A stretch of DNA of 64,000 bases from NCBI RefSeq assembly GCF_002937075.1, contig NZ_NHSJ01000045.1:1-64000 (forward strand), read 5' to 3'. Below, piece after piece: positions 1,709 to 24,103 of this stretch. How positions within the stretch are numbered: the stretch's first letter is position 1; each line of letters starts with the position of its first letter. The translations under genes were made by a program, and so were the position numbers. The notes under the pieces are model-generated. The model was not told the DNA's origin, made no database searches, and saw only the letters and a program-made list of their open reading frames with translations. The stretch comes from Rhodoblastus sphagnicola. GTDB lineage: Bacteria > Pseudomonadota > Alphaproteobacteria > Rhizobiales > Beijerinckiaceae.

Positions 1709-2764
1709 TCAGATGAATCCAATCCGACGAGGCTCAGGCTCCGCGCCCGCCCCAACCATAGCTTCGGCAGCCTCCAGATCAATGACATTCAGCGCGGTCG
1801 CATCCCGGGCTGCGGCGTATCCGGCGGCGACATGAAGAATCCGCCTGACATGACGTGGCGAGTGCCGGGCCAGTACGTCAAGAATCGCTCGGGTAGGGTG
1901 GCCGGCAATGCCCGGCCTGGCCGCAGCGAAATTGCGAAAAAGGCCTTCTGCGATGGCGCGACCCTCTGCGAGACTCGGTCGATCAATGGTCACAACCAGA
2001 CAGCGATCCAGCACCGCCGGGGGGATGTTTTCGATCGAATTCGCCGTCGCAACGAAAAAAATATGGTCCGCTCGCATTGTCAGACGCAGATACCCATCAC
2101 GGAATCGCCGCGCGCTTTCCGCCTCGAAAAGGACGTGGAACAAGTCTAAAGGACGTTCAGAATGCGCGTAGCGTGGTGCTTTCTCGATTTCGTCTAGGAC
2201 AATGATCGGGCATGCCCACGGCTCGTCAAGGAGTGTTCTGGCAATGACGCCAGGGCGGGCGGCTTTCCAGGACATTGTGTGGCCCCCGATGTCACCCACA
2301 TCATCTAACATGGTCATCTCGATCGGCACGAACGCGGTGCCGATGGCGATAGCTAATCGCTTTGCAACATACGTCTTTCCGACACCTGGAGGCCCAAGCA
2401 GTAAGAGCGGGGGCATGGTCATCGGGGAGCCGGTGCGCCGCGACGACATCGCCTCGCGAATGAAAAGCTTGACTAGAGGGCCGAGATTCGGAGCCGCCTC
2501 GCCGAGGCGCTGGAGGTCCCCGATCATTCCATCATCGCCCACCAATAGGGATCGCTCCGGTCCGATGAACGACGTTGCAATGTCTTTCAAATGCGCCAGA
2601 CGCTTCGCTTCTTCTGACGCGGCAGCGCCAAACTCCGTGCTGCCTGCGGCGGTTTCGGCTGCGCGGATAAGCGCGGATAACTCATTTTCGTCATAGAGCG
2701 TCACCGTCGGCCGGATGCGCGTTGCTGTTTTTGTGATCTTTGAAGGTCGTTTTGCAGGGTTCAT
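1709..2764 (-). CDS. AAA+ ATPase of the mobilization region (Lon-like ATPase domain)
   Basis: This 351-residue protein carries a full AAA+ core. Walker A is GPPGVGKT at residues 124-131 and Walker B is IIVLDEIEKA at about 187-196. Sensor 1 is the Asn in ATAN near 242 and a likely arginine finger is in LDRC near 254. A C-terminal helical lid follows. The core resembles the ATPase module of Lon-type proteases, but no protease domain or catalytic Ser-Lys pair is present, so it more likely remodels or moves a protein or DNA partner. It lies 78 bp downstream of the relaxase on the same strand, which suggests co-transcription and a role in transfer or element maintenance. A broken paralogue lies just beyond it. 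Its exact function is unknown. Confidence 0.75.
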   Translation of the reverse strand: MNPAKRPSKITKTATRIRPTVTLYDENELSALIRAAETAAGSTEFGAAASEEAKRLAHLKDIATSFIGPERSLLVGDDGMIGDLQRLGEAAPNLGPLVKLFIREAMSSRRTGSPMTMPPLLLLGPPGVGKTYVAKRLAIAIGTAFVPIEMTMLDDVGDIGGHTMSWKAARPGVIARTLLDEPWACPIIVLDEIEKAPRYAHSERPLDLFHVLFEAESARRFRDGYLRLTMRADHIFFVATANSIENIPPAVLDRCLVVTIDRPSLAEGRAIAEGLFRNFAAARPGIAGHPTRAILDVLARHSPRHVRRILHVAAGYAAARDATALNVIDLEAAEAMVGAGAEPEPRRIGFI

Positions 2765-2842
2765 GTTTTTGGGGTTTCCTTATTTATTATCGGCTCCCCA
2801 AGCAGAGTCCTATTGCCCTAGCCGTCGTGCAAAAACCCGCAC

Positions 2843-5800
2843 CTAACCCCTCCCATTGGCGTTCCTTCCTCCATTTTTCGCCTTTGCTTGCGAAACAGTC
2901 CTGAGCATCGCCTCGACCCCTTCAACGCTGTTGCGCATCACCCCTCTGGGATCGACCTCATTGAAAAGCGCAAGCCTCTCTGCCTTGGAGACTTTCATCG
3001 ACCACCTTTCGACGTCTCGAGTCATGTCGGCGCCCATGGCTCGGCAAACCCTGGTCAGCAGGCTCATAGCGGCAGGGTGGTGGCGGTTGTGATTGAGCAA
3101 TAGAAAAGCCGCGGCCAAGGGCCGTTTCTCTCGGCTCAATGTGCTCGAATATGCGGCAGCGAGCAGCCGTTCGTTGTGATCCGGCGGAAGTGGCTTGATC
3201 GACGGTTTCGATGGATACGGCGGCGCCGATCCAATCTCGGCCTTGATGGTCGCCTCGATGCCGGGCATGGCCGTTCGCGGCGGCGCCATCGGGGGGGCCG
3301 TGAGTTTTTGGTTGGCCTCACGCGCCTTGGGATTTTGAAGCTCGGACATTTCTTCGATCGCGCGCGCCAGAACGGCCTCAAAATCGACATGGCCGCCTTT
3401 GGCAGAAGCCGCGCCTTTGACGGTTTCGATGACGGCAGGCGGGGTAACCGGATCCCGCGATCTGGCCGACGCTGTTTCGGTCATGGTGGCGACTGCGGTT
3501 GTTACGGACAACGGCGTCGTCACGGTTGGCGTCAAGCCCTTTATGGTGTCCGGCGATGGCGCCATCGCGGGGGGGGCCGTGACCTTCGGGTTGGCGTCAC
3601 GAGCCTTGGGATTTTGAAGCTCGGACATTTCTCGAATCGCGCATGCCAGAGCAGCCTCAAGATCGACATAACCGGCTTTGGCAGATGCGGCGCCTTTAGC
3701 GGTTTCGATGACGGCAGTCGGCGCAACCGATCTGGCCAACGCTGTTTCGGTCATGGCGGCGACCGCCGTTGTGACGGGCAACGGCGTCTTCACGGCTGAC
3801 TCCAAACCCTTGAGGATAGTGTCCAGCGATGGCGCCGCACGTTTCGCCCATTGCCGCAACTGGATAGCCGCGCGACGTCGGTGAATGGCGTTGAAAGTTT
3901 CCGGTCTGAAGGTAACCGAGGCCGATGTCGGCGCAACGGGCGGCGTCTCTGCCGTCGACGACGACTCTTTGAGGACAGCGCGCGGCAAAGACGACGCGCG
4001 CTCCGCCCCTTGCAGCAACAACGGGGCTATCGCGTGATCAGGGCGGACGGCGTCGATGGGCTCGGATTGGCCGGCAATCGCGCCAATATCAGGTCGTTCT
4101 GAGTTTGGATGCGGTCCACCTGCGCCTGGATTCCGTTGAGTTTCTTGCAGACCAGGTTCAAGATTTCCATCAAGGATTCGAGCGGATCTTCGCCCTTGGA
4201 CGGCGCCGTCTTCATGAGGGCCAAAACCTCCTCCGACGATTTCGCAGCGCGATAGGCGTTGCGGTCCGCCGCCGCGCTGTTCTTGTCGGCATTCCGCGCC
4301 GCGGTGAGGATCCTGGGGAGTTCGTCGTTCGGTGGATTTTGCGTCGACATTGATTTGCTCCTTATAAGCAACCCCATTTTTTGGGATTTGATCACGCTGC
4401 TTTTCTTCGTCAGATTTCGTGTTCAGCTCGTTCCTGGTTGAGGACATGACAAGCGGATTAGCGCCCTTGGAATTTGTCATCTCCGCCGACATGGTCGCGA
4501 CGGCCGGAGTTGAAGGAATTGCCGGCTCGGTTAACGAGGCGACGGATGGCGGCGCCGCTTGCCCATTCGTGCGCCGGTCGGCGACATCCTCACGATGGCG
4601 ATCAAGCTCTTGGGCCTTGAACTCGATCCAGCGCGGCACGGTCGCCCGGCGCATCTGGGCATTTTGGTTGATTTTGGCAAAGGTCTGACTGCGCTCGGCG
4701 CGAAGCTGTTCCAATTTATGATCGACGATCAGATCGGCCGTCACGTTGATAAACCGGGCGACTTCCGATCTGCGGCCGAGGACGAGGTTGACCAACCGGC
4801 GGCGCAATCTTCCGGTGGTGATGATTTTGTCAAGCCGCTCGGCATATGTCGCCTTTATTTCGCCGATCGCCTTGCTTCGCTCGGTAGCAATATCGGAATT
4901 CGTTTTCCGAGCGGCCTTGAGTGCGTCCTCGAATCGCGCAAACGCGGCGGCAGCATCGAACCGATCGGACAGGGCCGGCTCGACGGCCGCCTTTTCTGCG
5001 CACGGCGAGGATGCGCCCTTGGCGTAAGGCGACTTGCGAATCTTTGGCGGAATAACGGTGAGCAATCCCTCCGGTGGCGGGCCCAATGCCGGAAACTTTT
5101 TGCCGTCGATCTTGCCGCCGCCATTAACAAGGCCCGGCCCACTGAGTTTTTCGTCCGACGTCAGGCTCAATTTCGAGAGCGCCTCGCGCCGGTCGGGATT
5201 GGTTGTGTCGACGACCAGCAGGCCCGCTTCTAGGCGCTGTGATCGTCCCTTCGTTTTTCCGTTAATATAAAGTGAGAAGCCGCGCGTGGCGAAGAGCCCG
5301 ATCAGCGCGCGCCAATCCGCCGCCATGCGGGCGGCAACCAGTTCCTCACGAAAGCTATTGTCCGCATTGAGTTGCTCGCTGATCGCCATGGCGCCGGTTT
5401 GGGCCGCATAACCTCGAAATTCTTGTGTTTTTGCGGGCGGGAGGATTCCGTCGCGAACGACGATGGCGGGACCGAACACGGCAGAGTCGAGCGTATTGAA
5501 ACGGCCTGGAATGATCGAAAAGCCGAGTTCTCTCGCCACGGTCGCGGCGGCGCGCTCGACATATGCGAAATTCCAGGAGTCCAGGGATCGCGCCGTGCGC
5601 CCATCGGGACCGATCTTGCAGACTTCTACATGGACCTCGTAGTGCGACGCGACCGTAGGAAATCTAGAGTGATTGACGGCGACGGCTTTGTGTTCGCTGA
5701 GCCCCAGCGTTTCAAGGAAACGCCTGACCGCCTCGCCCATCGTCTCGCGCGTCGGAGACTCATCGGCTCGAAAGGCAAGAATCAGATGGGCGACGGGCTT

Positions 5801-5968
5801 TTTTACTCGGTGTGATTTTCGCGCCTCCGCCCGCAGTTCGGCGACGGCGGAGTCGAGGCTGGCGATATTGAAGAGCGTGAAGTCGGCGGGGTCGAGATCG
5901 CGGCGCGCGGCGACGAGGTAATTGTGCAACCCGGCAAAATCATCGCCAAAAATCGCCCGCGCAATCAT
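2843..5968 (-). CDS. Relaxase/mobilization nuclease, MOBP-like, with long repetitive tail
   Basis: The first 160 or so residues have the layout of MOBP relaxases, which nick one strand at oriT and lead it into the recipient. His61 opens the central strand (HLILAF), and a histidine-rich metal site follows at His109-Tyr-Glu-Val-His113, then a DGR/SLD segment. The usual third-position His of the HxHxH block is Glu here. The tail to residue 1041 is Pro/Ala/Thr-rich and holds two copies of a 93-residue repeat. Residues about 540-648 read like translated noise because another gene is nested there in a different frame. The start lies 3 bp after the mobC-like stop, so the two are translationally linked. 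Confidence 0.75.
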   Translation of the reverse strand: MIARAIFGDDFAGLHNYLVAARRDLDPADFTLFNIASLDSAVAELRAEARKSHRVKKPVAHLILAFRADESPTRETMGEAVRRFLETLGLSEHKAVAVNHSRFPTVASHYEVHVEVCKIGPDGRTARSLDSWNFAYVERAAATVARELGFSIIPGRFNTLDSAVFGPAIVVRDGILPPAKTQEFRGYAAQTGAMAISEQLNADNSFREELVAARMAADWRALIGLFATRGFSLYINGKTKGRSQRLEAGLLVVDTTNPDRREALSKLSLTSDEKLSGPGLVNGGGKIDGKKFPALGPPPEGLLTVIPPKIRKSPYAKGASSPCAEKAAVEPALSDRFDAAAAFARFEDALKAARKTNSDIATERSKAIGEIKATYAERLDKIITTGRLRRRLVNLVLGRRSEVARFINVTADLIVDHKLEQLRAERSQTFAKINQNAQMRRATVPRWIEFKAQELDRHREDVADRRTNGQAAPPSVASLTEPAIPSTPAVATMSAEMTNSKGANPLVMSSTRNELNTKSDEEKQRDQIPKNGVAYKEQINVDAKSTERRTPQDPHRGAECRQEQRGGGPQRLSRCEIVGGGFGPHEDGAVQGRRSARILDGNLEPGLQETQRNPGAGGPHPNSERPDIGAIAGQSEPIDAVRPDHAIAPLLLQGAERASSLPRAVLKESSSTAETPPVAPTSASVTFRPETFNAIHRRRAAIQLRQWAKRAAPSLDTILKGLESAVKTPLPVTTAVAAMTETALARSVAPTAVIETAKGAASAKAGYVDLEAALACAIREMSELQNPKARDANPKVTAPPAMAPSPDTIKGLTPTVTTPLSVTTAVATMTETASARSRDPVTPPAVIETVKGAASAKGGHVDFEAVLARAIEEMSELQNPKAREANQKLTAPPMAPPRTAMPGIEATIKAEIGSAPPYPSKPSIKPLPPDHNERLLAAAYSSTLSREKRPLAAAFLLLNHNRHHPAAMSLLTRVCRAMGADMTRDVERWSMKVSKAERLALFNEVDPRGVMRNSVEGVEAMLRTVSQAKAKNGGRNANGRG
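3291..3835. repeat. Two-copy in-frame tandem repeat (about 279-bp unit) inside the relaxase gene
   Basis: Two similar blocks start near 3298 and 3577, a spacing of 279 bp or 93 codons. Each encodes, in minus-strand order, a stretch with TTAVA-MTETA, an AVIET-KGAASAK block, a V-D-EA-LA-AI-EMSELQNPKA block and a TAPP-MAP block. The copies differ at many positions, so the duplication is not recent. The shared MSELQNPKA element is the best conserved part. Confidence 0.8.
4027..4350 (-). CDS. Nested small mobilization-type protein encoded inside the relaxase gene (alternate frame)
   Basis: This 107-residue frame lies fully inside the relaxase gene on the same strand but in another frame. The ATG at 4350 is preceded by a textbook AAGGAG eight bases upstream. 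The product starts MSTQNPPNDELPRI and looks like a real helical protein. It has charged N-terminal helices and then a coiled-coil-like heptad stretch (LMEILNLVCKKLNGIQAQVDRI) at about 66-88. The relaxase frame over the same bases is Gly/Arg/Pro-rich and without structure. Nested mob genes are known in ColE1-type plasmids (mbeB and mbeD inside mbeA) and overlapping mob genes in RSF1010. I infer an accessory mobilization factor. I do not recognise a named family. Confidence 0.7.
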   Translation of the reverse strand: MSTQNPPNDELPRILTAARNADKNSAAADRNAYRAAKSSEEVLALMKTAPSKGEDPLESLMEILNLVCKKLNGIQAQVDRIQTQNDLILARLPANPSPSTPSALITR

Positions 5969-5971
5969 CCG

Positions 5972-6361
5972 TCACCCTGCCGATTTAGAAATTTCAACGG
6001 CGATGGCGGAAAGTAAATCAGCGGCCTGGATCAGTTTTGCACGGTCCTGTTCCAACGCCGCGGCGTCCACGCCGCATTCCCGTTTGATCGCCAATGCGAA
6101 CAGACCGCCCAAGGTGCGTTGCTGCGATGCGATCCGGCCCATCTCGCAAAGCAGCGCGTCGCGCTGACGATGGACGTCAGCGTCGATGAAATGATCGGCG
6201 CGGCGGTTGGGATCGCAATAGGACTCAATCGCACGAATGATGACCTCGGTCTTCGAGATGACCGCAGACGTCGATAGGCCGATTTTTTTTTGCTTCTCGG
6301 CAAGAAGGTTCACGTGGTGCTCGGGGAGCCGCACTGTCGTCATGATTGTCGTTCTCGACAT
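5972..6361 (-). CDS. MobC-like relaxosome accessory protein (ribbon-helix-helix)
   Basis: I chose the ATG at 6361 because GGAG sits 9 bp upstream and the ribbon-helix-helix fold starts right there. The 129-residue product begins MSRTTIMTTVRLPEHHVNLL, a beta strand with TVRL followed by helices, as in MobC or plasmid repressor proteins. A longer upstream frame exists but is lysine- and cysteine-rich and lacks a ribosome site. The C-terminal half is helical. The gene ends 3 bp before the relaxase start. Such proteins bind oriT and load the relaxase, and often repress their own operon. Large dyads lie just upstream of it. Confidence 0.7.
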   Translation of the reverse strand: MSRTTIMTTVRLPEHHVNLLAEKQKKIGLSTSAVISKTEVIIRAIESYCDPNRRADHFIDADVHRQRDALLCEMGRIASQQRTLGGLFALAIKRECGVDAAALEQDRAKLIQAADLLSAIAVEISKSAG

Positions 6362-6412
6362 CCTCTTTTCTCCGATAGCGAGCGGCAGCGAGCGAAGGCA
6401 TTGCCCGGTAAG

Positions 6413-7222: not shown

Positions 7223-7326
7223 GAAGTCGGCAGAAACCGGCGGCGATTTCGAATGCCGTAGGATCATCGCATCGCCATTAATCGCCGACGGCGCGCCCGT
7301 GGGGTTTGATCCCGAAAGCAAAGAAA

Positions 7327-7352
7327 ATGGACGCGGGGTCGCCCGCGTCCAT
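7327..7352. terminator. Strong bidirectional rho-independent terminator
   Basis: A perfect 11-bp stem (ATGGACGCGGG at 7327-7337, CCCGCGTCCAT at 7342-7352) encloses a GTCG loop. CTCTTTT follows on the plus side, and AAAGAAA precedes it, giving T-rich RNA on the minus side. It lies between the convergent genes at 6623-7222 and 7388-8827. Confidence 0.8.
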
Positions 7353-7387
7353 ACTCTTTTATGGTGCCAGATCCACGCGCCAAACGG

Positions 7388-8827
7388 TCAGCCCGCTTTC
7401 CGAATCTTGGCTGCGTGAGGATATTGGGTCGCGACGGTGCGGATTCGGGCGATGCGTTGGACATATTGCTCAAGTTGACGGGCCATGCTCGGTTGCGCAC
7501 GGCGAATCATTTCCGTCACGGCCTGCAGCGCCGTCGGCGCCGGCATCCAGGCCGCATCATTATCCGCGAGAATTCGATCACATTGCCACGCGTGCATCTC
7601 CGCGCGTTCGACATCGGTCAGCAAGTCCGGCCTTTCAGCGTAAATGAGCCGAAGGCCAAACACCCGCAGCCGGTCGTCGCCAATCTGATCCAGGACAAGC
7701 CGACGATCCTCCCATCGCGTCTCATGAAACGTCTCGCATAAGACCTCGTCCGCAGGGTCTATGAAACGGCCATAGATTTGCTCTGCCGGTGCAGCAGAAG
7801 CTGGCGATTTGGCGAAATGACGATCCATTGCGCGCGCAATCCGGGCCTGAAATGTACGATCCTCACGTATGGTTTTTGCACGCTCGGCGAGGGTATTGGC
7901 GCTAATCGTCACCCTGGGTTCACCTGGAAAAACGCCAACCGGGGACAGAATTGGGGCCGAACCGAGCTTGATCGTGCGCAGGATGCGAGGCGAGGCAGAG
8001 AAAGCGCCAACCAATTCGGCATCGGTCAACCGACGGATTGAATCAGGATCATGGGCGAGATCGAAAACACAAAGCGCGTTCGAATTGGACGGCGCGGTGA
8101 CGACGGGGGCCACGATCCGCGAGATCACTCGGCCTGCGTGAACCGCTGAAAATCGAAGAATTTCGTGACTTCGGATCAGGCTCAGAAGCGCCTTTTTGTT
8201 TGAGTTGCGCAGTGTCGCTGCGTAGACGTCCGGCGCGCGATCCGCCATGACGGCCATCAGCCCGCGCATGGCTTCGACATCGTGGAGGGCGTCATGAGCT
8301 GATTCCTCCGGGAACGCGACGCCATTTGCGCGCGCCAACGGCCCGAGTCGGAACGTGGGCTTCCCGTTGAGATCCGGGATCGTCAGCCGACCCGGCGCCA
8401 GGATGGCGCAGGCCTGCGCCATGGTCATCGAGTCGATGCGCTGATTTCCATGGGACTGGGTCAGGAAGGGTCGATGGAGCGTCTGAAAAAGCGCCTGCCG
8501 CAGCATTCGTTCGTCGAACTGAAATCCATTATGGGCGCAAAAAATCGCTGGCGACCAGGCATTGAATGTCTGCTGAGCGGCGCGAACGAGAGCGTAATGC
8601 GAGTGATCGCCGCCATTGCGAATAGTGGCATCGACACCAGTAGCCAGCATTGCTTCGGGGTTTGAAATCACGTGCGGCAGGCGGCGGCAGCGTAGTTCCA
8701 GCCGATCGAGGACATTAAGATGTTCATCGGTCAGCAGAGCGCCGAGCTGGAAAATCTGGTCATAATGAGCGCTAGTTCCTGACGTTTCAACGTCATAGAG
8801 GACATAATTCGTCGTTTCAGTTTTCAT
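7388..8827 (-). CDS. Exonuclease I-like 3'-5' DNA exonuclease (DEDDh)
   Basis: The start is set at 8827 (MKTETTNYVLYDVETSG), which has an AGGA upstream. The 479-residue protein has the full DEDDh set: Asp12 and Glu14 in DVETSG, Asp105 in HNGFQFDE, and His178 and Asp183 in AHDALHDVEA. The C-terminal half follows the layout of E. coli exonuclease I (SbcB). It has an APILSPVGVF segment, an EQIYGRFIDPADE block and a late helical region, and the length matches the family (about 475). It should degrade single-stranded DNA from 3' ends. It is the last gene of the minus-strand cluster that also encodes an HNH nuclease and a glycosylase-like protein, 145 bp after the HNH gene. Confidence 0.8.
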   Translation of the reverse strand: MKTETTNYVLYDVETSGTSAHYDQIFQLGALLTDEHLNVLDRLELRCRRLPHVISNPEAMLATGVDATIRNGGDHSHYALVRAAQQTFNAWSPAIFCAHNGFQFDERMLRQALFQTLHRPFLTQSHGNQRIDSMTMAQACAILAPGRLTIPDLNGKPTFRLGPLARANGVAFPEESAHDALHDVEAMRGLMAVMADRAPDVYAATLRNSNKKALLSLIRSHEILRFSAVHAGRVISRIVAPVVTAPSNSNALCVFDLAHDPDSIRRLTDAELVGAFSASPRILRTIKLGSAPILSPVGVFPGEPRVTISANTLAERAKTIREDRTFQARIARAMDRHFAKSPASAAPAEQIYGRFIDPADEVLCETFHETRWEDRRLVLDQIGDDRLRVFGLRLIYAERPDLLTDVERAEMHAWQCDRILADNDAAWMPAPTALQAVTEMIRRAQPSMARQLEQYVQRIARIRTVATQYPHAAKIRKAG

Positions 8828-8971
8828 GGGATTTTTCCTGCCAAAGGGCAAACCCCAGTCCGAAAATGATCTAAAAACGCTTGGCTCCGTCTATTCCGCG
8901 CTTGATCGCCCTCCTGACGCCTTCACTTCGCCGCCGTCCTGCAAGGCAAAGATTTGCGAGGCATGGGATTG

Positions 8972-9952
8972 CTATGAATCGGATATCGATCGCACGACGC
9001 GGATCAGGCGCCGGAATTCATCATCTCCGTCTGCGCGCTTCCAGCGATTGATGAAGCGGCAAACGATCTGCAGATTTCCCGGTTCATAGTGGCCGGCGCT
9101 GTCGATCCGATCGAGCGAGCAGAGCATTTCAACGTCGTCGTGGTCTCCGTCGAATTGGAGGGCAAGGCCAGTGATTGCGCAAAGTCCCTCCTGCAGTTCG
9201 AGCAAGTCGAGCAGATATTTTTCTAAATCCTGCTGCGAGGCGAAGCCCATGTCCTTGTTCTTGACGGTATGAAGGGCCTTCTGCCCGTTGGCGCCAGCGA
9301 CCGTTCCCATCGCGGTCATCGCCATGCGGGCAGCGGATCGCTGTCGGGCGTTGAAGATTGTCGCAACGCCCTTCTTCCCCTTCGCCTTTTCGATTTTCGC
9401 CTTCCATTCGGGGCGAGAATGCCAGGGGCTAAGATCGTCTCCGTTGATCAATGCGGCGGCATATTCAGCATAATCGTCGCGGAGTTGCTGCAGCGTTCCC
9501 TCGGTGAACAGAAATTCGCACGCCTTTGGATGAAGCGCGTTCCAGTCGAGTCTGTTTCCCGATCGGTTCCTGTTTGACCACGGTTCGGAGGGCTTGTGGC
9601 AGACGATGACGTCGCGCTTCTCGCCCACTGTTTCGTGCTTCGGTTCGAACGTCGGCGTGCTCGAACGCGACGTGGTCCACCAGAGCTGATCCTTTTCGCG
9701 ATGAATCCATAAATCGCCATCGGTTTCGGCGATGATGGTCATCAGGTTGAACCAGCGCGACGCCACCGCCTTGGTTGGAGTGATGCCCGCCGCCGTCTTG
9801 CCTTTCATTTGCAAGTCGATATAGGCGTCGCGGTCACCAGCGGCCCAGAGCTTCTGAAGATCCACACGGTTCATGGTCGCGATCGTTCCGCGCTGCAGGC
9901 AAACCGGCCATTCGTAATTCTCACGGCCGAAATTGGCGATAAACACTTTCAT
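8972..9952 (-). CDS. HNH-type endonuclease with unknown N-terminal domain
   Basis: The last 70 of 326 residues form an HNH-like site. They include LCAITG with Cys258, then S-L-D-R-I-D at about 279-284, a GHYEPGNLQIVC segment with Asn293 and Cys298, and F-I-N-R-W-K with Asn302. This C-x-x-x-G, L-D-R-I-D, G-N-Q-x-V-C order is typical of HNH nucleases that recognise and cut DNA. The N-terminal 250 residues, which contain a WFNLMTIIAETDGDLWIH segment, match no domain I know and may bind a substrate or partner. The gene lies 43 bp downstream of the UDG-like gene and is probably in the same transcript. Confidence 0.65.
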   Translation of the reverse strand: MKVFIANFGRENYEWPVCLQRGTIATMNRVDLQKLWAAGDRDAYIDLQMKGKTAAGITPTKAVASRWFNLMTIIAETDGDLWIHREKDQLWWTTSRSSTPTFEPKHETVGEKRDVIVCHKPSEPWSNRNRSGNRLDWNALHPKACEFLFTEGTLQQLRDDYAEYAAALINGDDLSPWHSRPEWKAKIEKAKGKKGVATIFNARQRSAARMAMTAMGTVAGANGQKALHTVKNKDMGFASQQDLEKYLLDLLELQEGLCAITGLALQFDGDHDDVEMLCSLDRIDSAGHYEPGNLQIVCRFINRWKRADGDDEFRRLIRVVRSISDS

Positions 9953-9995
9953 CGTGGCTCATCCCTCCTTTGATCTGGTTTCTTAAAAAAGCGCC

Positions 9996-10745
9996 TCAGG
10001 CGGCGTGCATCGCGGCGCGGACGCCGGCCTCCGCCATTTTGCGCTTCATGCCGGACGGCGTGGCCATGTCGCCGGCCATCCATTTGGGATGGTGTCCGTT
10101 CAGACCGGAGGGATGGCTGACGTGAACGAAAATGGCGCCGCCGGCGCGATAGCTGACGTCATTTATGTCGGCGTATGTTGATCCGTGGATCGAGCGGATC
10201 AACTTCTTGCAGCTCTTGATGTAGCCGTCCGTCGTGCCGAGCATCAGGACGAGCCGGACGCTGGATGGAAGATTGGTCAGATAGGTTTCGGCGCAGCCCC
10301 TCGTGACGCTGGCGATTTCCTCCGAAAAGGCTTTCGGCATGACCGCGCCCGTGCACTCCAGCCGGCCGTCGTCATTGCTGCGCGCCAGGCTGCACCGCAC
10401 CAGCGACCCGAAGGCGAAGTCCTTTTCATCTGCGCGCATCGTCGGATCGATGGCATGTCCGCGTTGTAGCAGGCCAAGGGCCTGCAGCATTTCGGTCAGG
10501 CGCGGACGCATCCCCTTGAACGGTACGTTCTCGAACTTTCCGGTCTTGTAAGCGCCGGCCTGGGTAAAGCCCTTCGAAAAGCCCAACACCAGAATTCTTG
10601 GCGCCGCCGAGCCCCATGCGCCGGGATCATTGACTGCCTGCCAACGGCCGATGGTCAGGGTTTCATCCGTCGACGCGCCAAAACAGCGGCGGCAGGCGAT
10701 CGGCCCATGGGCGGGAAAGGTCGCAATCGTGGAAAGCAGGCTCAT
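9996..10745 (-). CDS. Uracil-DNA-glycosylase-superfamily-like protein with Fe-S-type cysteines
   Basis: The 249-residue protein keeps the order of landmarks of family 4 UDGs. An N-terminal C-x2-C (ACRRCF) is followed by a motif-A-like strand (RILVLGFSKG). Next come a VRC segment and then GCAETYL, where those enzymes place the other Fe-S cysteines. A LVLMLG strand and a motif-B-like HVSHPSGLN follow. Motif A lacks the usual G-x-A-P-G, so base specificity cannot be assumed. Known family members excise uracil or modified bases. Its place between an HTH-like protein and two nucleases suggests it senses or processes unusual bases in foreign DNA. That role is inference. Confidence 0.5.
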   Translation of the reverse strand: MSLLSTIATFPAHGPIACRRCFGASTDETLTIGRWQAVNDPGAWGSAAPRILVLGFSKGFTQAGAYKTGKFENVPFKGMRPRLTEMLQALGLLQRGHAIDPTMRADEKDFAFGSLVRCSLARSNDDGRLECTGAVMPKAFSEEIASVTRGCAETYLTNLPSSVRLVLMLGTTDGYIKSCKKLIRSIHGSTYADINDVSYRAGGAIFVHVSHPSGLNGHHPKWMAGDMATPSGMKRKMAEAGVRAAMHAA

Positions 10746-10763
10746 GTCAAAATCCTCCTTATA

Positions 10764-11042
10764 TTACTTGCGCTTGAAGCGACGTCGGCGATGGGCGACC
10801 GTAATCAGCGAGCCCTCATCGCTGACGATGGCGTAGACGCCGAGCCATTTCTCGATGCCGGCGATGGATCGGCCGCCGTGGGCGCGGGTCATCCGGTCGC
10901 GCGCAGCCCGGTTGAAGAAAAGCGTGTCGGCGCCGCGACTGCGCTCGACCGCGCCATACTGGTCGAGCAGATTGACGATGACCGGCGGAATGCCGCGTTG
11001 TTGAAGGCGGCGCTGGGCGTGGTGCGTGATTGTCATTTCCAT
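10764..11042 (-). CDS. Small basic protein, possibly DUF4258/RelE-like
   Basis: This 92-residue product starts MEMTITHHAQRRLQQRGIPP and ends in a run of Arg/Lys. The H-A-x-x-R-x-x-x-R-G-I start is reminiscent of DUF4258 and related small toxin-like proteins, but the match is by eye only. Its ATG at 11042 directly abuts the stop of the upstream gene (11043-11045), so the two are translationally coupled. The UDG-like gene follows 18 bp later. It could be the toxin of a pair with the upstream gene or a small subunit of the cluster. Confidence 0.5.
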   Translation of the reverse strand: MEMTITHHAQRRLQQRGIPPVIVNLLDQYGAVERSRGADTLFFNRAARDRMTRAHGGRSIAGIEKWLGVYAIVSDEGSLITVAHRRRRFKRK

Positions 11043-12032
11043 TCAGGCGTCTCCTCCGTCGTTCGTCGCTAGGCCAAGTTCGGCCAGCGTCTTGCGCTGC
11101 CAGGAGACGCCGCTGACGATTCCCCAATTGCCAAGAGCGTTCGGCCGGCGCCATTGCGGGGTCGGCATTTTGGAGAGCCGGTCGAGAGCGGATCGATAAT
11201 CTTCCACTTTCACCTCGGAGCCCTTCTTTCCGATCGTGTAGCCATGCGCGCGGCGGCAGGTCTTGGGGTCGAAAAGGTTGCCGTCCTTGGTGGCGGGAAC
11301 GAAGATCACGTCGTCGAGGTCGTCGCTTTCTTCCTCGACGCGCTCGAAAAGCTCATTGGCTTCGGCCATGTGCCAGATGGACGAACGAAAATCCGAACGG
11401 GCTTCCAGCCAGCGCTTGGCGTCCGCTGACGGAATCTTGCCGTCAGCGTCGAGATTCAGCACCGCGACCCCGCTGCCGGGCGCTAGGAGGTTCTTGACGC
11501 TCTTAAGGCTGAGTTTCGATAGTTCCGCCAACTGCGCGGGGGTCACACCATGTCCGGCGTCGATTGCGAAACGCGCCTCTGCGGCGAGGACGGTGTTCCC
11601 GATGAATTGATTGGAACCCCATCCTGCGGGAATTGCGTCGATCAAGGCACGGCCCTTGGCCACCAAAAACCCAATCCTCTCGATCAACTCTTTTTCCGCG
11701 ACCTGCTTGTCGACAAGGTAAGAGTCTGGGCGCAGTCCCCAGAAACCATAGGCGTTCAGTTCGGTCATCAATTGCGTCGACTTGAGATTGCAGTCGTTGA
11801 AATGGGTCGACCAGAGCTGACGCCAATCGTCGCCGGCAAACTCTTCCGGGACGTCATTGCCGCTCAGAGCGCAATACAAGGCGACCATGATGGTCTCGAC
11901 CGTTTGGCGATCGATAAGTAGCCGCTCCAGCCACTCGCCCGTGGCGATGACGAGGCTGACCAGGTCTTCGCCCTCGCAGTCCGTGTAGCTCTGGCTGAAT
12001 TCTTCGTGGCGCTCCTGATAATTGTTTTCCAA
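11043..12032 (-). CDS. HTH-containing protein, first gene of the nuclease cluster
   Basis: The 329-residue frame starts with TTG at 12032. I accept this because AGGAG lies about 10 bp upstream and no good ATG exists nearby. An acidic N-terminal half is followed at about 178-220 by a helix-turn-helix-like block (TPAQLAELSKLSLKSVKNLL), then a D-G-K-I-P-S-A-D-A-K-R-W-L segment. These resemble the DNA-binding part of excisionase/MerR-type proteins. It heads a five-gene minus-strand run and probably acts as regulator or as antitoxin/partner of the coupled 92-residue protein. No named family recognised. Confidence 0.55.
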   Translation of the reverse strand: MENNYQERHEEFSQSYTDCEGEDLVSLVIATGEWLERLLIDRQTVETIMVALYCALSGNDVPEEFAGDDWRQLWSTHFNDCNLKSTQLMTELNAYGFWGLRPDSYLVDKQVAEKELIERIGFLVAKGRALIDAIPAGWGSNQFIGNTVLAAEARFAIDAGHGVTPAQLAELSKLSLKSVKNLLAPGSGVAVLNLDADGKIPSADAKRWLEARSDFRSSIWHMAEANELFERVEEESDDLDDVIFVPATKDGNLFDPKTCRRAHGYTIGKKGSEVKVEDYRSALDRLSKMPTPQWRRPNALGNWGIVSGVSWQRKTLAELGLATNDGGDA

Positions 12033-14003: not shown

Positions 14004-14717
14004 ATGACCGACTTCATCAAACGCCGCCTTCGTCTGACGGTGAGCAAGGAACTGTTGATTGACCTTGAAGACCGACTTCGCGCCGAAGCGGTGAAAGCTT
14101 TCGAGATGATCCGCGACCGCGCCGGTCTAAACCGGAAGCGTGCCCGTGAACTGGAAGGACAGGCCCGCTTCCGAATGATGGAAGAGGGGTTCGAGGATGT
14201 CTGTCAGTTGCATGGAGGACGTCTGCTGGACGGTGGAGTAATTCCAAACACTGAGCTGAAAGTTTTCCAACCTTTCATGCGGTTTGAAGTCGAAGGGAAG
14301 GGCATCATCCTCGGGCTGGCGGCGATGCCAGAACCGAAGGCTGTGCCGCACAAGAACATGTCTCGTCAGGCCGGCGTGACAATGAATTACCATTTGTCTC
14401 CACGCCTGGACTTAGATGGGTCAGGCCCCAGGATTGGCGATATCTTCGCGCTCTTCCTGGTAGCGCGCGATCGGGAGAAGGCTGGCCAGATTCAGGAAAT
14501 GGCAATCGGCGTTGTGGACTCGAAATATGAAGGCTTTTTGTATTATGAGCAGATCGACCAGTTCCTGAGCGGCTCTGGCGATGCGCCCGAAACACGCACT
14601 ACGCCGACAGCCGTGCCGCCGGCCTCTTCGGTTTCTCTCAAGGCTAATGTGAAGCCCTTCGTGCCGCCGGAAGCGCGCAAGCCGAAGAAAGAGGACGGTG
14701 GGGCAGGACAGGAATAA
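14004..14717 (+). CDS. Unknown 237-aa protein paired with Xre-ImmA/IrrE peptidase
   Basis: The product begins with a basic helical segment (KRRLRLTVSKELLIDLEDRL). A central mixed region with F-M-R-F-E-V-E-G-K-G-I-I-L-G-L follows, then a DIFALFLVARDREKAGQIQEMAIGVVDSKYEGFLYYEQ domain and a Pro-rich tail. I do not recognise the family. The downstream gene starts 40 bp later on the same strand, so they likely form an operon. Metallopeptidase-linked partners of this kind are often substrates, repressors or toxins controlled by cleavage. That role here is inference only. Confidence 0.6.
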   Translation: MTDFIKRRLRLTVSKELLIDLEDRLRAEAVKAFEMIRDRAGLNRKRARELEGQARFRMMEEGFEDVCQLHGGRLLDGGVIPNTELKVFQPFMRFEVEGKGIILGLAAMPEPKAVPHKNMSRQAGVTMNYHLSPRLDLDGSGPRIGDIFALFLVARDREKAGQIQEMAIGVVDSKYEGFLYYEQIDQFLSGSGDAPETRTTPTAVPPASSVSLKANVKPFVPPEARKPKKEDGGAGQE

Positions 14718-14757
14718 GGCTTCGGCCATCTAAAATTGTTGCAGGTAAAGGTGGAAA

Positions 14758-15954
14758 ATGCGCGTGGGAACGCCCGGATTTATGCCGGAGAGACTAACGG
14801 AAGCGCGGGCTGCGCGGCGCATCGCGAGTAAATCTGCATTGGCGCGGCTTCTGAGTGTCAACGCAAGTACGGTGGCTCGATGGGAAGACGGTTCCAGCTC
14901 GCCTGACACTGAGGCGTTAACGGCTCTTTCCGACGTTCTGCGTGTCCGGCGGGAGTTCTTTCTTCGGCCAATCTACGATAGCGCGCGACCGATGTTTCAT
15001 CGGTCGCTTGCCAGTACGCTTGTCCGCGACATCGATTACCAACATGCGCAAATGCGCTGGCTCCACGAACTCAGTTCGATTTTGCAGCATTACGTCGATT
15101 TCCCTGCGATCGATATTCCCGACGTCCTGGAAGGAAGCAGCTACAAGCAACTTCGTGATGAAGATATCGAGCGCATCGCGCTGGATTTGCGCAGCCATTG
15201 GAAAATCGGGGAAGGCCCGTGCACCGATGTCGTTGCGCTCATGGAGCGCGTTGGCTTCGTGATCAGCACCATCGAGATGGGCACGTCGAAACTTGATGGC
15301 CTTTGCAGTTGGTCGACGGCCGAAGATCGCCCTCACGTATTGCTTGCGAACGATAAAATGTCATTTCCTCGCCGACAAATGGACGCTGCCCATGAAATGG
15401 CGCACGCCATCCTCCACAAGGATGTGACAGTCGCTGAATTAAAGCAGAATCTCAAATTCATCGAGACGCAGGCCTTCAGATTGGCGAGCGCATTCCTGAT
15501 GCCATCCACGACCTATTCGCACGAGGTTTCGCGACCATCGCTCGCCTCGTTCTTGTCGTTAAAAGATCGTTGGCGCGTATCGATCAAAGCCCAAATCAAG
15601 CGCCTGTCCGACTTGGAAATCGTTTCCGGCGACCACCAGGTGGAATTGTATAAGCTCTATTCGGCGAAAGGCTGGAGCCGCGAGGAACCTCTCGATCGGG
15701 CGTGGCCCGTCACTGAGCCGCGCGTGCTGAAGGACGCGATGGAAGTTATCGTTACGTCTGGCATCCGCACCAAGGCAGATTTGCTTGCAGTTGAATTCAC
15801 GATGTCGCCCGGCGATATCGAGAATGTCACCAACTTGCCCGCCGGATGGTTTGCGTTGAAATCTGGCGAGATTGTTCAGCTTCGCAGCGATATCGAGCGG
15901 CGACACAGCAATTCGGATCAGCCCGGCGTCGTCGTGCCTTTCGCTCGAAAATGA
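14758..15954 (+). CDS. Xre-family HTH fused to ImmA/IrrE zinc metallopeptidase
   Basis: Residues about 10-70 form an Xre helix-turn-helix (SKSALARLLSVNASTVARWE). Residues about 140-260 form an ImmA/IrrE (DUF955) domain with the zinc motif HEMAH at 212-216. The C-terminal 140 residues have no clear match. The length, about 398, is normal for this two-domain type. ImmA proteins cleave phage-type repressors, and related Xre/ImmA sets act as toxin-antitoxin or defence switches. The start has AGGTGG just upstream. It is the second gene after the unknown 237-aa protein. Confidence 0.85.
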   Translation: MRVGTPGFMPERLTEARAARRIASKSALARLLSVNASTVARWEDGSSSPDTEALTALSDVLRVRREFFLRPIYDSARPMFHRSLASTLVRDIDYQHAQMRWLHELSSILQHYVDFPAIDIPDVLEGSSYKQLRDEDIERIALDLRSHWKIGEGPCTDVVALMERVGFVISTIEMGTSKLDGLCSWSTAEDRPHVLLANDKMSFPRRQMDAAHEMAHAILHKDVTVAELKQNLKFIETQAFRLASAFLMPSTTYSHEVSRPSLASFLSLKDRWRVSIKAQIKRLSDLEIVSGDHQVELYKLYSAKGWSREEPLDRAWPVTEPRVLKDAMEVIVTSGIRTKADLLAVEFTMSPGDIENVTNLPAGWFALKSGEIVQLRSDIERRHSNSDQPGVVVPFARK

Positions 15955-16938: not shown

Positions 16939-17568
16939 ATGAAACGCTCGCCAATGCAAGCCCCGCCTGCGCCGCCTGTCCGCCTTGTGGATATCTCCGA
17001 GGTCTTCGCGGGTATTGGCGTATCCCGCGAAGATTCGCTTGAACGCCCTGGCGAAAAATTGCCGGTCATTGGCGTTCGCGACCTCCAGGATGGCATGGTG
17101 ACCGAGCGCGAGGCGCTGGACACAGTCGGCTTTCCGGACCCATCTCGCGCCAAGACCTATGCCGTTCGCTCGGACGATGTTCTCGTCACCGGGCGCGGCA
17201 CACTGTTGAAGTTTGGGCTGGTTGGCAATGAGACGGCGGGCGCAATCGCCAGCGGCAACGTCATCGTCGTACGACCCAATCCGGCAACGACCGGCGGCGT
17301 GCTCTTCGCGATCCTATCCAGTGAGGTGTTTCGCCCCAAGATCGAAGTGCTGCGTCGGGGAGCGACCACGTTGTTGTCGCTGTCTCCAAAGGACCTTGCC
17401 AAGCTGGAAATCAATTTGCCGCCGCTGGACGAACAGCAGCGCATCGCCGCGTTCGTCAAGGATGCGCAGACCGCTTACCGCACCGCCATCGAGGCCGCAG
17501 ACATCCGCCGCCGGCTCGCGCGACGTTTGATTGACGCGCGTCTCTTCGGCGGCAACCGAAACTATTGA
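16939..17568 (+). CDS. Half-size type I restriction S-subunit-like protein
   Basis: The 209-residue product looks like one half of an HsdS specificity subunit. It has a single target-recognition-like domain and then the conserved end LSLSPKDLAKLEINLPPLDEQQRIA, followed by a helical coil. Full HsdS proteins have two such halves, and a complete HsdS follows downstream at 19093. AAGGG lies just before the ATG. It ends 8 bp before hsdM, so it is the first gene of the operon. It may pair as a half-subunit, give an alternative specificity, or control the system. Its sequence does not say which. Confidence 0.7.
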   Translation: MKRSPMQAPPAPPVRLVDISEVFAGIGVSREDSLERPGEKLPVIGVRDLQDGMVTEREALDTVGFPDPSRAKTYAVRSDDVLVTGRGTLLKFGLVGNETAGAIASGNVIVVRPNPATTGGVLFAILSSEVFRPKIEVLRRGATTLLSLSPKDLAKLEINLPPLDEQQRIAAFVKDAQTAYRTAIEAADIRRRLARRLIDARLFGGNRNY

Positions 17569-17576
17569 GGGAAAAT

Positions 17577-19103
17577 ATGGCAAAGCTCACGCGCAGCGAA
17601 CTGGAAAGTCATCTCTGGAAATCCGCCGATATCCTGCGCGGCTCCATCGATAGCTCCGATTACAAGATTTACATCTTCGGCTTCCTGTTTCTGAAACGCT
17701 TGTCAGACCGGTTTGAAGAAGAGGCGCAGGAGTGTATCCGCAACGGCTTGTCCAAGGACATCGCCTATAGCGACCCCGATGAGCATGAATTTTTTCTCCC
17801 AGAACGCGCGCGCTGGTCAAAGCTCAAGAAGCTGACAACCGGAATTGGCGACCAACTCAACAAGGCGTGCGCCGCAATCGAAGACGAAAACCCCTCGATT
17901 GAGGGCGTCCTCGCTAATATCGATTTCAATTCCGAATCGCGCCTTGGCGACGCCAAGAACAGAGAAGGAGTGCTTGCGCGACTGATCGATCATTTCTCGC
18001 GCATCGACCTGTCCAACACCTCATTGTCCGAGCCGGACATGCTGGGCCGTGCCTATGAATATCTCATTGACAAGTTCGCCGACGACGCGGGCAAGAAGGG
18101 CGGCGAGTTTTACACGCCCCACCATGTCGTGCGCCTGATCGTCGAATTGCTTGACCCTAAGCCGGGAATGCGCATCAGCGATCCGACCTGCGGTTCCGGC
18201 GGCATGTTGATCGAAAGCGCGCGCCACATTGCTGACATCGAACACAAGCGTCTCGGGGAGCCGATCAACATTACGCTGCACGGGCAGGAAAAGAACCTCG
18301 GCACATGGGCCATCGCAAAGATGAACCTGCTGCTGCATGGGTTGCGCGATGCGCGGATTGAAAAAGGCGACACGATCCGCAATCCCCGGCTTCTCGATGA
18401 AGAGGGCAATCTGATCCTTTACGATCGCGTCATTGCAAACCCGCCTTTCTCACTCGATAGCTGGGGCGCGGATGACGTGTCTGGCGAGAATGAGAAGGAA
18501 AGTTTCAATCGCTTCATCTATGGCATTCCGCCCAAGAATATGGGCGATCTCGCCTTTGTGCAGCACATGGTTGCGACGCTCAACGCCAAGGGCGTGTGCG
18601 GTGTCGTCATGCCACATGGCGTACTGTTTCGTGGCTCTGGCGACGGGCGCATTCGCGAGGCGATGCTGAGAGCGGATTTGTTCGAGGCCGTTATTGGACT
18701 GCCGGAAAACTTGTTCGCGGGCACCGGTATTCCCGCGACCATTCTTATCCTCAACAAGGCGAAGCCTAAGTCGCGCAAAGGCAAGTTGCTGTTCGTCCAC
18801 GGCGCGAAGGAGTTCGAGGAGCGACCCAAGAAGAACATCCTTGGAGAGGGCAACATCACCCGTATCGTCGATGCCTTCCGGGCATGGAAGGACGAAGACC
18901 GCTTCTGTCGTGTTGTCGATATGAAGGAAATTGACGAGAACGATTTCAACCTCAACATCTCCCGTTACATCGACACGCTGGAGCCGGAAAAACCGATCGA
19001 TGTGAAAGCCGAACTGAGCAAGCTCTGGGCTGCCGAGAAGGCGCGGGACGAGGCGGCTGCGCGCATGAACGCCCTCCTGAAGGAGATGGGCTATGCCGGG
19101 TGA
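17577..19103 (+). CDS. hsdM: Type I restriction-modification methyltransferase subunit HsdM
   Basis: I start at the ATG 17577 (MAKLTRSELESHLWKSADIL), which has AGGG upstream, rather than the TTG at 17565. The 508-residue protein has the N-terminal HsdM helical domain and the N6-adenine methylase motifs: DPTCGSGGML near residue 201 for SAM binding and NPPF near 287 for catalysis. With two HsdM and one HsdS it methylates adenine at the target site. Its last 11 bp overlap hsdS, so translation is coupled. Confidence 0.95.
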   Translation: MAKLTRSELESHLWKSADILRGSIDSSDYKIYIFGFLFLKRLSDRFEEEAQECIRNGLSKDIAYSDPDEHEFFLPERARWSKLKKLTTGIGDQLNKACAAIEDENPSIEGVLANIDFNSESRLGDAKNREGVLARLIDHFSRIDLSNTSLSEPDMLGRAYEYLIDKFADDAGKKGGEFYTPHHVVRLIVELLDPKPGMRISDPTCGSGGMLIESARHIADIEHKRLGEPINITLHGQEKNLGTWAIAKMNLLLHGLRDARIEKGDTIRNPRLLDEEGNLILYDRVIANPPFSLDSWGADDVSGENEKESFNRFIYGIPPKNMGDLAFVQHMVATLNAKGVCGVVMPHGVLFRGSGDGRIREAMLRADLFEAVIGLPENLFAGTGIPATILILNKAKPKSRKGKLLFVHGAKEFEERPKKNILGEGNITRIVDAFRAWKDEDRFCRVVDMKEIDENDFNLNISRYIDTLEPEKPIDVKAELSKLWAAEKARDEAAARMNALLKEMGYAG

Positions 19104-20400
19104 ACTGCCGCAGGGCTGGACCACCGCACGCTTCCGCGACGCAATGCGCTTGGAGGAGCGGCGCGAGCAGATTGATCCCAATCGAACTTACAAGTTGCTT
19201 GGAGTTCGTTGGTACGGAAACGGCGCATTCCTCCGAGAAGAGCGTTTGGGCGAAGGGTTGTCCGCACAACATATTTACCGGGTGCAGCCGGGAGACGTGA
19301 TTTACAATCGTCTTTTCGCTTGGAAAGGAGCATTCGGGTTAGTGGGCGACAATCTAGCTGGCTGCTACGTGTCAAATGAGTTTCCGCTTTTTGCAGCGCG
19401 GCAAGATTGCGTCGATCCGCAGTTCCTTCTCCGGATTTTGAAACATCCTAGAACGTCAGAACGAGCCAACGCTTTTTCGACTGGCACGACATCAATCAGC
19501 CGAAACCGGCTAGGTGAAGATGACTTCTTGCACTTCCCACTCAACCTTCCACCGCTCGCCGAACAGCGCTCGATAGCTGAAGTGTTGCTCGCGCTCGAGG
19601 ACACTATCGCTGCCATGGGAGAGCTGATCAGGGCGATTGCAAACGCAAAACACGCGACGATGCGTGAGCTTCTTACCCTTGGTATTCGCCGCACCAAGGC
19701 ACCTCTGAAGAAATTGCCCAACCGTTGGGTTCTGGGGCGCATCACCGAAGGTGTCACCCACATCGCTTGTGACTGGGACCTTGTTACACTCACGAAAGTA
19801 GCGAAACTAGAAAGTGGGCATACGCCTAGCCGCGATCAGCCCGACTATTGGGGCGGCGACATTCCTTGGCTGTCGCTCGCGGACACCGACGCACTTGAAG
19901 CGCTCGAAGTCGACCAAACTTCGGAATATGTGACTTCAAAGGGAATTGCACACTCTTCGGCACGAATTCTACCAAAGGATACTGTCGTCTTCTCGCGTAC
20001 TGCAACAGTTGGCAAGGCAACGCGGATGAAGATACCCATGGCGACCAGCCAAGATTTCGCGAATTGGATATGTGGTCCTACACTGCTCCCGGCCTATCTA
20101 GTGCAAGTATTTCGTCACATGGGTCGCGAATGGGAGCGTCTTCAGGAAGGCAGCACACACCAAACGATCTACATGCCAGTGTTCAAAAAACTGCAAATTT
20201 TGCAGCCGCCAAAGATCGAGCAACAGAAAATCGCTGAGATTGGGGAAGCGTTTGACCATCGCATTTCTTGCGAGCGGGCTGCCCTTGCGGGGCTCCTCCA
20301 CAATCGGGCTGCTCTCTCCCAAGAACTCCTTTCTGGTCGTCTTCGCCTTCCCGAAAGCATTGTCGCGCGTCATCGCGACAAGCCGGAACAAGCCGCATGA
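19093..20400 (+). CDS. hsdS: Type I restriction-modification specificity subunit HsdS
   Basis: The 435-residue product has the expected two-fold layout. TRD1 covers about 1-150 and ends in NLPPLAEQRSIAEVL. A central coiled spacer of about 160-200 follows. TRD2 covers about 220-390 with KLESGHTPSRDQPDYWGGDIPWLS and ends in PPKIEQQKIAEIGE. These domains read the two halves of a split DNA target. It starts inside the end of hsdM (11-bp overlap), and its stop overlaps the hsdR start by ATGA. The DNA target cannot be read from sequence. Confidence 0.93.
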   Translation: MPGELPQGWTTARFRDAMRLEERREQIDPNRTYKLLGVRWYGNGAFLREERLGEGLSAQHIYRVQPGDVIYNRLFAWKGAFGLVGDNLAGCYVSNEFPLFAARQDCVDPQFLLRILKHPRTSERANAFSTGTTSISRNRLGEDDFLHFPLNLPPLAEQRSIAEVLLALEDTIAAMGELIRAIANAKHATMRELLTLGIRRTKAPLKKLPNRWVLGRITEGVTHIACDWDLVTLTKVAKLESGHTPSRDQPDYWGGDIPWLSLADTDALEALEVDQTSEYVTSKGIAHSSARILPKDTVVFSRTATVGKATRMKIPMATSQDFANWICGPTLLPAYLVQVFRHMGREWERLQEGSTHQTIYMPVFKKLQILQPPKIEQQKIAEIGEAFDHRISCERAALAGLLHNRAALSQELLSGRLRLPESIVARHRDKPEQAA

Positions 20401-23366: not shown

Positions 23367-24103
23367 ACAGCGGCGAATCGCATCATTTGGATTTTGGCGG
23401 CGAGCTCATCAATTTCTCGATAGAGCGAACGTTACGGCGAAAGACTGTTGCTATTTCAGTCGGCTATGATGGCGTCCGCGTGCTCGCTCCCTTCGATCTC
23501 GATGACGATCGCGTCATTGCAATTGTCCGCCAAAAAGGCCCCTGGCTGTTGCGAAAACAGGCTGGATATCGCGAGCTAGGCGGGACGCCTTCCACGCGTG
23601 AATTCGTCAGCGGCGAGACGTTCCACTATTTGGGTCGACCTTACCGGCTCAAAGTCGTCCCCGACGAGAAGGCGGTCATCACGCGCATTGTCGCACGAGG
23701 GTCGTCACTCCTGGCTCCTGTCTTGCCGAATGCCGGCGCGCCAGTGCGTCGCGCAGCGGTTCGAAGCGCGCTGAGGCATTGGTATCGCGACCATGCAAAA
23801 ATGCATTTTTTGGCGCGGGCAAAAGCAATGGCCGAGCTCCTTGGAATTCCGACGCCAGCGGTGCAAGTCGTCGATCAGTCCAAGCGCTGGGGCAGCTGCG
23901 ACGCCTATGGACGCATCCGGCTGAATTGGCGGCTGATCATGGCATCAATGAAGTCGGTCGATTATGTGATCGCCCATGAGGCTTGTCATATCCTTGAGCA
24001 CAATCATTCTCGACGCTTCTGGAGGTCATTGGAAATAATAATGCCCGACTATCAGATGAGATTGCGCGAACTTGATCGGCAAGGCCATTTATTCATTTGG
24101 TGA
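23363..24103 (+). CDS. YgjP/DUF45-type zinc metallopeptidase of the type I RM operon
   Basis: The 246-residue protein has the YgjP-like (DUF45) fold. It contains an N-terminal beta-rich part, WGSCD near 175-180, and the zinc motif HEACH near 206-210 followed by ILEHNHS and FW. This family sits next to hsdR in many type I systems. It may process or control a subunit, but its role is not established. The ATG overlaps the hsdR stop by four bases, so it belongs to the operon. Confidence 0.85.
   Translation: MNSGESHHLDFGGELINFSIERTLRRKTVAISVGYDGVRVLAPFDLDDDRVIAIVRQKGPWLLRKQAGYRELGGTPSTREFVSGETFHYLGRPYRLKVVPDEKAVITRIVARGSSLLAPVLPNAGAPVRRAAVRSALRHWYRDHAKMHFLARAKAMAELLGIPTPAVQVVDQSKRWGSCDAYGRIRLNWRLIMASMKSVDYVIAHEACHILEHNHSRRFWRSLEIIMPDYQMRLRELDRQGHLFIW

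Follow-up and report, generated by a model that had tools for sequence, protein, structure and literature searches.

The window analysed here is a stretch of 64,000 nucleotides from Rhodoblastus sphagnicola (contig NZ_NHSJ01000045.1, positions 1 to 64,000). Five consecutive open reading frames (ORFs) are present on its minus strand as shown in Table 1. They encode a putative DNA-binding protein (gene 1), a small basic protein (gene 2), a protein of the uracil-DNA glycosylase (UDG) superfamily (gene 3), an HNH nuclease and an ExoI-like exonuclease. An earlier note on this DNA proposed that the five genes form one defence pathway. The gaps of 0, 18 and 43 bp given in that note are correct, and the fourth gap is 144 bp rather than 145 bp, counted from the likely start codon of the ExoI-like gene. 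According to the comparison with other genomes, the combination of an HTH (helix-turn-helix) protein, a small protein and a UDG-like protein is a recurring three-gene unit, and the HNH and ExoI-like genes look like separate neighbours that the module would not need. The loci and genomes compared are given as L and G numbers.

Genes 1–3 of the window show no credible match in the Pfam, NCBIfam, PADLOC or PHROG libraries. The predicted structure of gene 3 shows the α/β fold of the UDG superfamily, as the note had expected (predicted local distance difference test, pLDDT, 89.9), and its best 32 PDB matches all belong to this superfamily. The structure alignments to family 4 UDG and UdgX show less than 20% identity; gene 3 does not reach Pfam PF03167 (UDG), and a sequence search of the PDB gave no credible match. 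The cysteine layout of Fe–S UDGs is found as Cys18, Cys21, Cys118 and Cys151 in 31 of 31 aligned sequences, and a [4Fe-4S] cluster is predicted from these four residues. Motif A is altered, as also noted before. Family 4 UDG and UdgX have GExPG together with an Asn residue, whereas gene 3 has GFSKG and Ser114 at the corresponding sites. The catalytic acid/amide positions of motif A are occupied by Phe56 and Ser57, and neither an acid nor an amide is found there. Other motif A forms of the UDG superfamily are GxNPG and GQDPY. The motif B histidine (His211) is kept in 31/31 sequences, with the HPS form in seven of them including the window (HPSGLN), and the pocket aromatic residue (Phe/Tyr76) is present in all 31. 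Separately, the core region of the window contains an ordinary UDG-superfamily gene (Table 1).

Ten plasmid records and 31 loci among 84,980 species genomes contain relatives of gene 3. Gene 1 accompanies gene 3 in eight of these 31 loci and gene 2 in five, with the order conserved; gene 2 was not detected in the other 26, and three of the 31 have less than 1 kb of upstream sequence. Two Roseomonas plasmids carry genes 1, 2 and 3. Closer to the host, relatives of gene 3 are present in 3/59 related genomes (one is a 33-residue fragment) and in 2/384 other genomes of the class. No match was found in 50,697 phage records, and viral contigs yielded none by the single-sequence scan and five by the alignment scan.

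The search with gene 1 gave matches in 15 other genomes (5/384 of the class and 10/296 of the order). A UDG-superfamily gene is located beside gene 1 in ten of the 15, from eight genera (G244, G383, G233, G587, G045, G483, G532, G610, G599 and G624); this count includes a truncated gene 3 (G483) and a truncated gene 1 (G383). The binomial probability of ten in 15 is 3e-25 at an assumed rate of 0.16% per locus and 3e-17 at an assumed 1%, figures that are only indicative because the rates are assumed and two genome pairs share a genus. The remaining five comprise a GIY-YIG-like gene with a DnaQ exonuclease (G498), a locus whose nearest recognised gene encodes a TIR protein (G586), gene 2 only (G241), the C-terminal domain only (G140) and a contig end (G570).

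Three of the ten neighbours belong to the gene-3 family, and seven belong to a second UDG-superfamily family. An alignment of six of these seven has G(L/I/V)TPG as motif A and HPSGAN (HSSGAN in one) as motif B, and does not conserve the four cysteines of gene 3. The invariant residues Gln70, Ser142 and Arg145 correspond to Gln62, Ser114 and Arg117 of gene 3. One member (L088) passes the Pfam UDG cut-off (28.8 bits against 24.3), and the three others scanned score 19.2–24.0 bits. The profile comparison between the two families gave an E value of 4.4e-4 over 171 columns with a probability of 33.5. The second family is found in 32 plasmid records, of which four were examined. The gene orders include a gene-1 relative, a 135-aa gene, gene 2 and the UDG gene in Thauera; gene 2 and the UDG gene at the record start in Caballeronia; and gene 2, an unrecognised 364-aa gene and the UDG gene in Sphingomonas. 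ORF maps of unannotated loci were made with crude pickers (length or GC content at third codon positions, GC3), and gene names read by eye are leads unless a family scan backs them.

Gene 2 is basic, as stated in the note. Its match to PF14076 (DUF4258) is below the cut-off (E = 0.034, 14.9 bits against 25), and its model weakly resembles the RelE/BrnT/colicin-E5 (BECR) fold. His8, Arg12, Gln14, Arg16, Thr81 and His84 are invariant among six aligned sequences. RelE/ParE–BrnT toxins share with gene 2 the small size, the basic character and a putative DNA-binding gene directly upstream, as far as the available part of the source describes them (PMC11980606), and may share the BECR fold that the model weakly suggests; the same source calls the DUF4258 members undescribed. 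The module differs from such toxin pairs in its third gene, which encodes a UDG-superfamily protein. Genes 1 and 2 might instead be an ordinary toxin–antitoxin pair that keeps the island, with gene 3 as an unrelated passenger. Having gene 1 before a DUF4258-like gene fits the antitoxin–toxin order listed for that family, and one locus (L095) has genes 1 and 2 without a recognised UDG gene. However, most gene-1 matches elsewhere adjoin a UDG-superfamily gene, and from two families; this explanation is quite unlikely.

The assignment of gene 1 as an HTH protein is weakly supported. The window protein gives no credible library match, and some relatives give weak HTH matches. Among ten relatives scanned, five match Xre-type HTH profiles (E = 2e-4 to 8e-3, none reaching the cut-off) at C-termini that differ from that of the window protein. 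One of the ten has a central HTH_17 match (E = 0.028), and one relative carries the annotation of an HTH regulator. The versions of gene 1 in which a weak Xre-type C-terminus replaces the window's C-terminal domain pair with both UDG families (L014 and L026 with gene 3; L097, L100 and L103 with the second family). The C-terminal domain of the window protein, for which we coin the name WRRPN, has no Pfam match and is mobile: elsewhere it is fused to an HTH_31 regulator (E. coli plasmid), a DnaQ exonuclease and an ASCH domain. It is possibly a DNA reader. A gene-1 relative is also followed by a GmrSD-type enzyme (L051; PF03235, PF07510), and GmrSD is a family of nucleases associated with modified DNA.

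Table 1. Positions of the features in the window and at the compared loci.
Feature	Sequence	Position	Strand	Remarks
Gene 1, putative 329-aa DNA-binding protein	Window	11043..12032	-	Helical N-terminus; HTH-like central segment (by eye); C-terminal WRRPN domain, residues ~236-316
WRRPN domain	Window	11046..11327	-	C-terminus of gene 1
Gene 2, 92-aa basic protein	Window	10764..11042	-	DUF4258-like by sequence, below cut-off; BECR fold by model
Gene 3, 249-aa UDG-superfamily protein	Window	9996..10745	-	Four conserved cysteines
HNH (endonuclease VII-like) nuclease, 326 aa	Window	8972..9952	-	PHROG matches; neighbour outside the conserved module
ExoI/SbcB-like exonuclease	Window	7388..8851	-	Start probably ATG 8827; likely part of the backbone of the mobilizable element
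Terminator-like hairpin, 3' of the ExoI-like gene	Window	7327..7352	-	11 pairs, T-rich tail; pattern match only
Element backbone	Window	1712..6367	-	AAA-type protein 1712-2764; relaxase 2843-5968; RHH-like protein (by eye) within 5972-6517
RosmerTA pair	Window	14004..15951	+	RmrT 14004-14714 (PADLOC 9.3e-106); RmrA 14758-15951 (PADLOC 5.6e-206)
Type I R-M	Window	16939..24100	+	PADLOC; specificity-like 209-aa ORF, HsdM, HsdS and HsdR (16939-23363), next ORF without PADLOC match
Ordinary UDG-superfamily gene	Window	34952..35434		PF03167 1.3e-23; GQAPG, HPSWRN by eye
WRRPN-domain locus	L042	5785..6246
WRRPN-domain locus	L043	4729..6225
WRRPN-domain locus	L044	5491..6228
Gene-1 relative, then GmrSD-type enzyme	L051	4776..7808
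Second mobilizable element	L134	3552..17559		Same genome (G000 contig 105)
Gene-3 relative in BREX-like setting	L018	66..8176		Thauera propionica
Genes 1 and 2 with annotated GIY-YIG nuclease	L046	1..8073
Gene annotated dpdA	L005	14545..15903		Acetobacter
First gene-3 copy	L006	7172..7876		Acetobacter persici plasmid; shortened, 203 aa
Second gene-3 copy	L006	9959..10750		Acetobacter persici plasmid

The identities given in the note to the last two of the five proteins were borne out. The ExoI-like protein matches PF08411 (8.3e-18), PF00929 (5e-7) and PADLOC RTasSbcB (2e-81); its NCBIfam exodeoxyribonuclease I match is 7.9e-44 but reaches only 150 of the 260 bits required. The SbcB-like partner is the only part of the DRT system (RTasSbcB) matched here. 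The HNH protein matches PHROG endonuclease VII (6.4e-13), endonuclease (3.1e-11) and HNH (2.9e-4) profiles at residues ~245–322, and has no Pfam match.

If the five genes were one pathway, the glycosylase would make abasic sites, the HNH nuclease would cut and the exonuclease would trim. The shared strand and the short gaps are consistent with such a pathway. However, an iterative hidden Markov model (HMM) search found no HNH or ExoI-like homologue in the 40 fetched gene-3 loci besides the window (L002–L041; 1.9 to 20.8 kb each, all counted, although L003 and L016 represent one site, L008 is nearly identical to L009, and L004 and L010 contain fragments). Among 296 other genomes of the order, the HNH protein is present in four, none near genes 1–3 or the ExoI-like gene within flanks of up to 6 kb per side (less at contig ends), and two of these four genes adjoin type I restriction–modification (R-M) genes (L132 and L133; by eye). 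The ExoI-like protein is present in 16 of the 296 genomes and as a second copy in the host, with none of genes 1–4 within 1.5 kb. A distant blastn search of plasmid records found none covering 80% of the 4.8-kb cluster (best 9%), and the 14 matches are single-gene pieces. The GC3 value of the ExoI-like gene (0.62) is lower than those of genes 1–3 (0.74–0.80), and that of the HNH gene lies between them (0.71). It is genes 1–3 that recur together. Several loci weigh against restricting the system to these three genes: the UDG-like genes of L031, L089 and L101 have HNH proteins of other families nearby (15 bp upstream in L031); L101 (Bosea) additionally has an ExoI-like gene; and the contig of G483 that holds gene 1 has an ExoI-like gene ~23 kb away. 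DnaQ-type exonucleases, which adjoin gene 1 in L092 and L100, could also be counted for the five-gene pathway. On balance, this pathway is highly improbable.

The hairpin listed in Table 1 came from a pattern scan that found eight such sites against 6.5 expected in shuffles. A hairpin with a T tail between gene 3 and the HNH gene was rejected as a terminator, its folding being no better than that of shuffles (z = 0.30). A promoter scan of positions 7000–12600 found four sites against 2.2 expected; no site precedes gene 1 on its own strand.

Positions 1712–6367 hold the backbone of a mobilizable element, with a relaxase (PF03432, 2.6e-14), an AAA-type protein (TRIP13-type, 4.3e-11) and a ribbon–helix–helix (RHH)-like protein. 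The host genome contains another mobilizable element (L134), which has its own ExoI-like gene. The genes of this element are ordered as in the window (AAA-type, relaxase, RHH-like, divergent small gene, ExoI-like), with identities of 75% for the AAA-type protein, 46% for the relaxase (residues 1–460), 36% for the RHH-like protein and 44% for the ExoI-like protein. Beyond its ExoI-like gene lie ORFs that, by eye, look like type III R-M genes. Since the same mobilization genes precede the ExoI-like gene in both elements, this gene is probably part of the element backbone, which is a further point against the five-gene pathway. The two elements would represent an element family with an ExoI-like exonuclease in its backbone. 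Genes 1–3, the HNH gene, RosmerTA and the type I R-M genes are probably cargo. The defence-island setting suggested before is correct, with RosmerTA and type I R-M genes in the window. RosmerTA is an antiphage toxin–antitoxin family according to the part of the source available (PMC10440598). An extra specificity-like 209-aa ORF precedes HsdM, and perhaps serves specificity switching.

Relatives of gene 3 are located in other settings that point to defence, these being the recognised cases, given without a background rate. The relative of Thauera propionica (L018) lies between two PglX-type genes, with a PsyrT-like helicase gene downstream, a possible exchange site in BREX. In Arenimonas (L021), gene 3 starts 1 bp beyond the methyltransferase gene of a type III system (PADLOC E = 0); it begins 207 bp after a ZacC-type helicase gene in Roseobacter MED193 (L024), and 3 bp after a methyltransferase gene and 6 bp before a helicase gene in Gluconobacter (L034; both by eye). 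A tyrosine integrase gene (by eye) precedes it by ~30 bp in Pannonibacter, Silicibacter and the viral contigs L056 and L058. In Acetobacter (L005), a gene annotated dpdA, which we take to be for 7-deazaguanine DNA modification, lies ~4 kb from a gene-3 relative. The Acetobacter persici plasmid (L006) has two copies of gene 3, ~5 kb from type I-F CRISPR genes. At L046, an annotated GIY-YIG nuclease gene joins genes 1 and 2; back to back with them stand genes that carry annotations for a cysteine desulfurase, DUF4007 and the PAPS reductase family, such as occur in phosphorothioation (Dnd) loci. The GIY-YIG label there is the NCBI annotation alone, and Pfam and PHROG scans of it were empty.

Gene 3 might also be a DNA-repair glycosylase that guards the element or the host from a damaged base. 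Its superfamily, and the four further UDG-superfamily genes of the host genome, are consistent with repair. However, gene 3 is rare in the class, plasmid-borne, and located beside R-M and BREX genes elsewhere, and a repair role is very unlikely.

We give a probability of roughly 0.5 to the reading that positions 9996–12032 encode a three-gene defence module (HTH, RelE-fold and glycosylase-like proteins), carried as cargo of a mobilizable island, which excises non-canonical bases. Gene 1 probably represses the operon by HTH control, and may keep the small protein inactive. Gene 2 would be an RNase-type toxin, as its modelled fold suggests, and gene 3 an Fe–S-type DNA effector. By analogy with the antiphage glycosylases Brig1 and Brig3, we infer that the glycosylase most likely flips out and excises a non-canonical base of the invading, modified phage DNA. 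The resulting abasic sites would stop replication, as for Brig1 and Brig3, and the RelE-fold protein would give growth arrest if the infection continues. The main doubt about this mechanism is the missing acid/amide of motif A. Therefore, gene 3 could be a non-catalytic reader of foreign or modified DNA, which triggers the RelE-fold toxin as the effector. The residues Phe56 and Ser57, the retained Phe/Tyr76 and motif B histidine, and the toxin-like model of gene 2 fit such a reader. However, most gene-3 relatives have no detected gene 2, and family-5 UDGs work although their motif A has no acid; a reader is rather unlikely.

A wider proposal is made tentatively, with less than even chances: the HTH and RelE-fold pair would be a general control unit with exchangeable DNA-damaging effectors, and its UDG versions would provide base-excision immunity with a built-in RNase as second line, and would differ from the single-gene Brig proteins. 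The putative effectors found with the pair are the two UDG-superfamily families and the annotated GIY-YIG nuclease. Gene 1 alone adjoins the GmrSD-type enzyme and also the pair of GIY-YIG-like and DnaQ exonuclease genes.

Brig2 and Dag1/Dag2 are reportedly antiviral glycosylases against modified thymine and guanine, according to papers that cite the 2025 preprint of Getz et al. They may include one or both of the UDG families found here, in which case these would already have been described. According to the available parts of the papers, Brig1 (PMC11078745) and Brig3–BapA (PMC13160076) are UDG-superfamily antiphage glycosylases acting on modified phage bases, and share with the module the UDG-superfamily fold, the defence-island setting and short operons. 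Those parts mention no HTH or RelE-fold partner such as the putative ones of the module; the systems were compared by description. Brig1 has Glu147 where family-4 UDGs have Asn, and gene 3 has Ser114 there. R.PabI restriction glycosylases use base excision as restriction, as proposed for gene 3, but have the HALFPIPE fold and mark self by a methylated base, in the part of the source covered (PMC10273834). No description of an HTH/small protein/UDG-like operon was found in the open-licence PMC literature, which makes this a weak negative.

Antiphage base excision by the UDG superfamily was shown only recently (Brig1, 2024). The present case shows that adjacency in a mobile island, as of the ExoI-like and HNH genes, can suggest a pathway that comparison fails to support. 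A recurring operon with two divergent UDG families in one slot and a toxin-fold partner, together with relatives that elsewhere adjoin BREX and type III R-M genes, would extend base-excision defence across Proteobacteria and provide a shortlist of proteins for tests of base specificity.

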